A DNA stretch of 64,000 nt from Pseudooceanicola onchidii (GTDB taxonomy: Bacteria; Pseudomonadota; Alphaproteobacteria; Rhodobacterales; Rhodobacteraceae): contig NZ_SPUW01000001.1 in the NCBI RefSeq assembly GCF_004959925.1, positions 558,001 through 622,000 on the forward strand, given 5' to 3'. A program made the translations under genes and the position numbers. Under the pieces are notes generated by a model, which saw only the letters and a program-made list of their open reading frames with translations, was not told the origin of the DNA and made no database searches. Positions 16,705-17,182 of this stretch are shown here, piece by piece (the stretch's first letter is position 1; the number at the start of each line of letters is the position of its first letter).

Positions 16705-17163
16705 CTAGTCGAAGGGCGCGACACGTAAGCCAGAGTTCGTTGCCGCGTCAAAGCCGCCCCCGCCCGGCATCCTGTCCCCCGCGCCGCCCGGGCGCAGCAG
16801 GTCGTCCAGCATGGCCGAGATGTCTTCGATCGTCTCGGCGATCACATGCGTCACCTCGTTCTCGCGCTGCAGCCGTCCGGTCACTCGCAGCATCCGACCG
16901 GCGATCACCGCGCGGCGGAAGGCCTCGTAAAGCTTGCGCCAGACGATCACGTTCACCACGCCCGTCTCGTCCTCGAGCGTGAGGAAGATCACCCCCTTGG
17001 CCGTTCCGGGCCGCTGTCGCAGGATCACCAGCCCCGCCACCGCCACCCGCGCGCCCTGCGGTGGCAGATCCAGCATGTCGGCGGGCAGGCAGGCGGGTGG
17101 GCGTGGCCAGGGGTAGGGGTCCGGCGCACGCGGATCTGGGAAGGGGGGCGGGCGATCACTCAT
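16705..17163 (-). CDS. Free-standing DnaE2-type OB-fold protein under a LexA box
   Basis: 152 residues from the ATG at 17163. After a Pro-rich stretch of about 28 residues comes an OB-fold segment ([19 protein letters not shown], then [19 protein letters not shown] and [19 protein letters not shown]) that closely resembles the C-terminal nucleic-acid-binding domain of DnaE2, the error-prone polymerase of the ImuA-ImuB-DnaE2 mutasome. No PHP or polymerase domain is present, and the adjacent upstream DNA belongs to the divergent ferredoxin. A perfect LexA box lies 5 bp before the ATG. It is either a decayed dnaE2 tail or, since the frame and operator are intact, a small SOS-induced protein. No ribosome site is visible between box and ATG, so a leaderless message or later start is possible. 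Confidence 0.62.
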
Positions 17164-17167
17164 GCGA

Positions 17168-17182
17168 GAACAAATAGCGAAC
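17168..17182 (-). promoter_or_regulatory. LexA (SOS) box
   Basis: Read on the minus strand the sequence is GTTCGCTATTTGTTC, a perfect match to the alphaproteobacterial LexA consensus GTTC-N7-GTTC. It lies immediately before the ATG of the DnaE2-like OB-fold gene and about 100 bp from the divergent fdxE start, so it should control the former and might affect the latter. Confidence 0.7.

Follow-up and report, generated by a model that had tools for sequence, protein, structure and literature searches.

What would a free-standing OB fold of the error-prone polymerase DnaE2 be doing behind a LexA box of its own, and where is the rest of the polymerase? The question is raised by a short gene on the minus strand of the window, i.e., the whole stretch of 64,000 nucleotides of Pseudooceanicola onchidii DNA that was analyzed (Table 1). 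The initial annotation had described an intact frame of 152 residues whose recognizable part is the C-terminal OB fold of DnaE2, an assignment borne out by both Pfam and NCBIfam. Residues 25–122 match positions 942–1039 of the 1047 of PRK05672 (NCBIfam, “error-prone DNA polymerase”; E 3e-31, the top-scoring DNA polymerase III alpha model reaching only 8.5e-9), and residues 40–115 match the Pfam OB fold PF01336 above the Pfam cut-off (E 1.2e-12). By sequence, and over the part that is present, the product belongs to DnaE2/ImuC rather than to DnaE1; no polymerase or helix-hairpin-helix (HhH) domain was found in the reading frame by the Pfam search. The AlphaFold2 model of the product has the OB topology (mean pLDDT 68) and, among the PDB matches listed, resembles a wide range of OB proteins to about the same degree, including Stn1, RPA14, SSB and residues 1007–1099 of an M. 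tuberculosis DNA polymerase (7pu7); none of the 50 PDB matches listed is a DnaE2 structure by name.

Table 1. Features of the free-standing OB gene and its surroundings (window coordinates).
Feature	Position	Strand	Remarks
Free-standing DnaE2 OB-domain gene	16705..17163	-	152 aa; ATG start at 17163, stop ends at 16705; domain matches, dN/dS 0.05-0.14
OB-fold domain, residues 38-122	16798..17052	-	Pfam, NCBIfam, alignment, AlphaFold2 model
N-terminal WPRPP motif, residues 19-23	17095..17109	-	Candidate docking motif, putative function
C-terminal tail, residues 123-152	16708..16797	-	Variable among orthologues; without SRDF
LexA box GTTCGCTATTTGTTC	17168-17182	-	4 bp before the ATG of the OB gene; exact GTTC-N7-GTTC
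Presumed -35, TTGAGG	17194..17199	-	Followed after 16 bp by the putative -10 (CTATTT) within the LexA box
Ferredoxin-like gene	17284-17607	+	Transcribed away from the OB gene; assigned by eye on the cysteine motif

Orthologues were collected by a scan of named genomes, in which the best 80 of 522 loci, some of them duplicating G-labelled genomes, gave a readable free OB in 78; together with the window protein they make up a set of 79. Ruegeria, Leisingera, Phaeobacter, Shimia, Sulfitobacter, Roseivivax, Marivita and Mameliella are among the genera of these best 80 loci. Within the OB domain, 64 of the 85 positions are at least 90% conserved in the 79 proteins. The N-terminal motif, WP-x-PP, is present in 79/79 of this set, which was chosen for similarity to the window protein, and in 11 of the 14 free OBs used for the tree described below (absent in G011, G093, and G113), and was found in none of the linker/OB regions of 18 fused DnaE2. 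The SRDF motif is absent from all 79 free OBs and from 16/16 truncated DnaE2 cores, versus its presence in 16 of 19 intact DnaE2 rows; C-terminal SRDF[H/R] is reported to end about 77% of DnaE2, and its function is stated to be unknown (PMC3919608). A ferredoxin gene divergently adjoins the OB gene in 73 of the 77 orthologous loci with enough flanking sequence, so that the short intergenic gap may hold both promoters.

That no polymerase domain adjoins the gene, as had also been pointed out, holds locally, but a DnaE2 devoid of OB domain is encoded elsewhere in the genome. The contigs of the source genome (G000; 3.67 Mb, 8 contigs) were searched with the DnaE2 model, of which three matches were obtained: a truncated DnaE2 (model positions 3–939), DnaE1 (4–1035), and the window ORF (942–1039). 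The truncated DnaE2, at C1:196963-199842, carries the polymerase, finger and HhH Pfam domains and stops just before the OB domain, the match to which lies about 375 kb away at C1:574798-575091. All 16 truncated cores that were compared keep PDIDVDFE, which we take to be the catalytic motif, and end soon after “..LRxxLTP”; past LTP the core continues for anything between a few residues and several tens, and the OB protein opens with a short leader.

The distribution of the two pieces was surveyed in 150 Rhodobacteraceae genomes (one per genus, at least 90% complete), with DnaE2 called at E 1e-15 and free OB at E 1e-12, the class lists being typed by hand and then counted. A free OB gene occurs in 63 of the 66 genomes with a truncated DnaE2 and in none of the 67 with intact DnaE2 only (Fisher's p 2e-36 for the co-occurrence of truncated DnaE2 and free OB, a value that ignores kinship). 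It also occurs in one (G083) of 13 genomes without DnaE2, a class in which the matches listed comprise one match per genome (two in G083), all DnaE1-like by score, and in one (G093) of the four genomes with fragmentary DnaE2 (G176, G121, G125, G093), which were set aside. G115, with polymerase and OB in one 1129-aa frame, was counted as intact, and G067 keeps both split and intact systems. In a class-level search of 144 genomes, clear free OBs were found only in Rhodobacteraceae (in 2 of 3 genomes of this family); shorter frames were seen in G225, G221, and G305. This distribution goes against the suggestion of the initial annotation that the protein assists a normal DnaE2 or competes with it, as the DnaE2 of the genome itself lacks the OB domain. 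Since the free OB tracks truncated DnaE2, it is more simply read as the OB domain of DnaE2 itself. Thus, the free OB protein is probably the ssDNA-binding OB domain of DnaE2 turned into a separate subunit, which would rejoin the SOS mutasome in trans.

A few truncated-DnaE2 genomes yielded no free OB. No OB match was found at E 1e-3 in G076, G096, and G180, and none was detected in G020 (66% complete, truncated DnaE2). The absence may be apparent only in these four: no ferredoxin orthologue marking the site was found at E 1e-20 in G180 and G020, the best candidate in G076 is only a 45% match, and G096 has a contig end about 219 bp past the ferredoxin gene, a stretch that holds no OB start or box. 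Together with G083, such absences weigh most against reading the OB protein as a trans-acting DnaE2 subunit. A seeming second origin of the truncation, in G045, was rejected as an artefact of one intact gene cut by contig ends, since the DnaE2 frame is still open at the final base of C2 (217,585 bp) and the OB piece begins at the first bases of that contig; G045 was left out of the truncated and free-OB lists.

Each half of the polymerase forms one clade. In the tree of DnaE2 cores (36 rows, i.e., 41 loci without G024, G035, G012, G015, and G120), the 16 truncated polymerases group together with full support (100/100) as sister to the intact DnaE2 of Rhodobacteraceae, a 17th truncated row being the G045 artefact, and in the OB tree the 14 free OBs are separated from 18 fused OBs (95/97). 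It follows, most simply, that dnaE2 was split once. In a DnaE1 tree of 32 genomes, with long branches at G024, G120, G113, and G180, the genomes with an intact cassette are nested among the split ones, with seven label changes, six of them forced by well-supported branches; the split form thus appears to have given way to intact cassettes on about seven occasions. Neither a free OB nor a truncated core was found in G023 and 11 fused same-genus genomes, a set in which G012 is 77% complete, the DnaE2 of G004 is partial and that of G015 is in two frames. G023, which has two intact cassettes, retains the decayed remains of an OB gene in syntenic position beside the ferredoxin gene (L212, about 1064–1183, ferredoxin forward): approximately OB residues 84–123 are matched at 55%, the front half is unrecognizable and there is no box. 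Here the OB gene has apparently been caught decaying after replacement. No OB match lies beside the ferredoxin gene in the intact-cassette genomes G010, G009, G007, and G021, nor in G043. An imuA-imuB-dnaE2-type cassette is borne by a 126-kb plasmid of D. shibae (PMC9426580); the main text of another D. shibae paper (PMC6473078) contains neither “dnaE” nor “OB-fold.”

These replacements bear on the most serious alternative, namely that the protein, having parted functionally from DnaE2, now binds ssDNA as an SOS-induced factor in its own right, whether accessory or competitor, the core managing without an OB domain. Some C-family polymerases are indeed reported to lack OB domains (PMC3919608), the N-terminal WPxPP motif is new, and G083, in 7 contigs and 100% complete, retains a free OB gene with LexA box (locus C4:2078001-2090000) together with imuB, while no DnaE2 core was found in it. 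Such a factor would nevertheless have to follow the truncated polymerase almost one to one, to be missing from fused genomes after about seven replacements, and to decay in G023, and we regard it as unlikely. Still less probable is that the OB protein serves mainly DnaE1, or plays an SSB-like SOS role, the correlation with DnaE2 reflecting ancestry and joint replacement. The single origin of the split clade would allow it, as would the even-handed resemblance of the OB model to many OB proteins among the matches listed, but a DnaE1-type match is found, or implied by the matches listed, in 150/150 genomes while the OB gene is patchy, and the closest match of the OB protein is DnaE2, not DnaE1.

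The LexA box of the window gene has the exact sequence claimed for it, though it stands 4 bp, not 5, before the ATG. It is the only exact box in the 64-kb window, against a chance mean of 1.6; with approximately one exact box per 64 kb expected by chance, the box alone is weak evidence and its conservation is what counts. A chance box was rejected on that basis instead of on its single occurrence: relatives possess the same short gene with its own box, an exact GTTC-N7-GTTC lying upstream of 76 of the 79 free OB genes (75 of the 78 named loci and the window gene). The distance from box to start is 5 nt or less in 64 of these 76 genes and the start is ATG in 70, the start having been taken as the first in-frame ATG, GTG or TTG after the box, a choice that favors short distances. 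Membership of the LexA (SOS) regulon is indicated by this box, conserved before the start of orthologues, and LexA control of the free OB gene is strongly implied. The A/T-rich spacer of the box may double as the -10 element of the OB promoter. Relative to the box, orthologues have T at -18 in 68/76 cases and G at -16 in 64/76, as would suit a -35 element, and in the window gene the TTG is one base nearer the box than in the orthologues. As the presumed -10 falls within the box, bound LexA would cover the promoter itself, and the transcript of the OB gene would be nearly leaderless.

The free OB gene is under purifying selection. Its dN/dS (NG86) is 0.05–0.14 (10 pairs from 5 genomes), far from neutral, and that of the DnaE2 core is 0.11–0.17 (6 pairs from 4 genomes, G008 left out). 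The initial annotation had argued for a separate protein rather than a dead remnant, and the latter is contradicted by these ratios and by strongly conserved residues. Admittedly, the product is a mere fragment of a larger protein and its C-terminal tail is variable; a non-functional leftover of gene fission persisting by chance is very improbable all the same, given the dN/dS, the exact box in 76/79 orthologues, and the frames that stay open in many genera. The break point of the split DnaE of cyanobacteria differs from that of split DnaE2. These cyanobacteria offer a precedent for a C-family polymerase encoded in two parts (PMC3901139), but it is scarcely credible that the halves of DnaE2 are ligated into a single chain in the manner of the split intein there, for the short core end and the short OB leader leave no room for intein halves.

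The other components of the mutasome are likewise dispersed. The imuA, imuB and dnaE2 genes, which the initial annotation would lead one to look for, are all present in the source genome at separate loci with boxes, dnaE2 being truncated. Exact LexA boxes lie 16 nt before the starts of imuA (C1:915756) and imuB (C2:617556), and the dnaE2 core has a one-mismatch box. In all eight split genomes compared, both imuA and imuB have exact boxes and stand apart from dnaE2 and the OB gene; in the wider genome set, no box was found at imuB of G096. Boxes precede 13 of 14 real truncated dnaE2 genes (G008, G180, and the artefact row G045 left out of the count), 12 being one-mismatch GAAC-N7-GAAT and one exact, and none was found at dnaE2 of G113. 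GAAC-N7-GAAT (L144:6939-6953 and relatives) is a conserved one-mismatch site, perhaps giving weaker repression. In relatives with an intact cassette, imuB lies directly 5′ of dnaE2.

ImuB itself differs between split and intact systems. A conserved, basic insertion of about 45 residues (pattern G-D-x4-E-A-x2-T-R-x2-A-x3-R-x-W-x2-G-G) occurs in the ImuB of 17/17 split genomes, including the source genome (imuB at L182:5466-7127), and in none of nine ImuBs from intact-cassette Rhodobacteraceae or four outgroup ImuBs. G076 and G096 retain it though no OB was found there, and in G083 it is shortened, with W..GG lost. The insertion comes after the IMS domain (Pfam) and, would precede the presumed thumb domain; in the ImuB model, residues 148–209 score below 50 in pLDDT, a helix being predicted at 169–185, and a PDB sequence search with the insertion returned nothing meaningful. 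A mutasome model published in 2026 sets the ImuB thumb against the HhH region of DnaE2 (PMC12926913), a contact that would adjoin the place where the OB domain attaches; in the accessible text of that work, DnaE2-ImuB contacts are placed at PHP and HhH and the OB is not named. Given the single origin of the split clade, WPxPP, the ImuB insertion and the loss of SRDF need not be functionally linked, since descent could suffice.

The following course of events would account for the separate OB subunit. In an ancestor of many genera of the Roseobacter group, dnaE2 would have been divided after the HhH domain, most simply once, the catalytic part remaining one gene and the OB part becoming a second gene far away, with a LexA box for each of the OB gene, the dnaE2 core, imuA, and imuB. 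Cleavage of LexA after damage to the DNA would switch on the four units jointly, and the OB protein would rejoin the mutasome in trans, hold the template ssDNA for DnaE2, and dock by its WPxPP N-terminus and perhaps by the basic insertion of ImuB. More tentative, and quite possibly wrong in part, is the fuller picture of a detachable OB subunit held by both WPxPP and the ImuB insertion, encoded with its partners at four dispersed LexA-boxed loci, tuning mutagenesis and swapped as a whole set. If it were true, the supply of OB protein could gate or tune mutagenesis, and the split set would be exchanged whole upon gain of an intact cassette.

Compared with the known ImuA-ImuB-DnaE2 mutasome, the system is alike in its DnaE2-type OB, its LexA boxes and the genes for ImuA- and ImuB-like proteins that accompany it in the genome, but differs by an OB encoded by a separate gene at a separate locus, by the lack of SRDF and by the extra basic segment of ImuB. 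Dispersal of imuA, imuB and imuC at loci with their own SOS boxes is already known (PMC3901139); cassette members are scattered there as here, but as whole genes, while here the polymerase gene itself is divided. In the standalone ImuB-C with inactive PolY, or “split ImuB” (PMC6511836, PMC12926913), a mutasome domain is also a protein of its own, there the C-terminal barrel of ImuB and here the OB domain of the polymerase. Several DnaE2 sequences without OB domain have been reported (PMC3919608) and may include the split type, but the accessible text of that report, unlike the present analysis, links the missing domain to no separate gene. No description of a DnaE2 divided into core and free OB protein was found in a literature search covering mostly open-access main texts. 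The nearest precedents of the divided DnaE2 polymerase are the standalone ImuB-C, the dispersed imu loci and the OB-less DnaE2.

To our knowledge, the role of the DnaE2 OB domain in translesion synthesis has been little studied. Culturable marine bacteria here provide a polymerase naturally stripped of its OB and C-terminal motif, with the OB supplied separately, so that OB function can be addressed through knockout of one small gene, with the polymerase left as it is. Split, intact, and replaced lineages also give a phylogenetic handle on the interdependence of mutasome parts. As to annotation, a short “OB-fold protein” in the Roseobacter group may be one half of an enzyme whose other half is a short DnaE2.

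Other arrangements of the cassette were seen in passing. In G010, imuA lies at C1:1581231, and imuB with an intact-type dnaE2 on another contig (C2:511856-516579), perhaps an intermediate state of dispersal. A perfect LexA box precedes the gene next to the plasmid-type imuB-dnaE2 cassette (L185:1540, L147:221), a gene that is, by eye, presumably SRAP/YedK-like.
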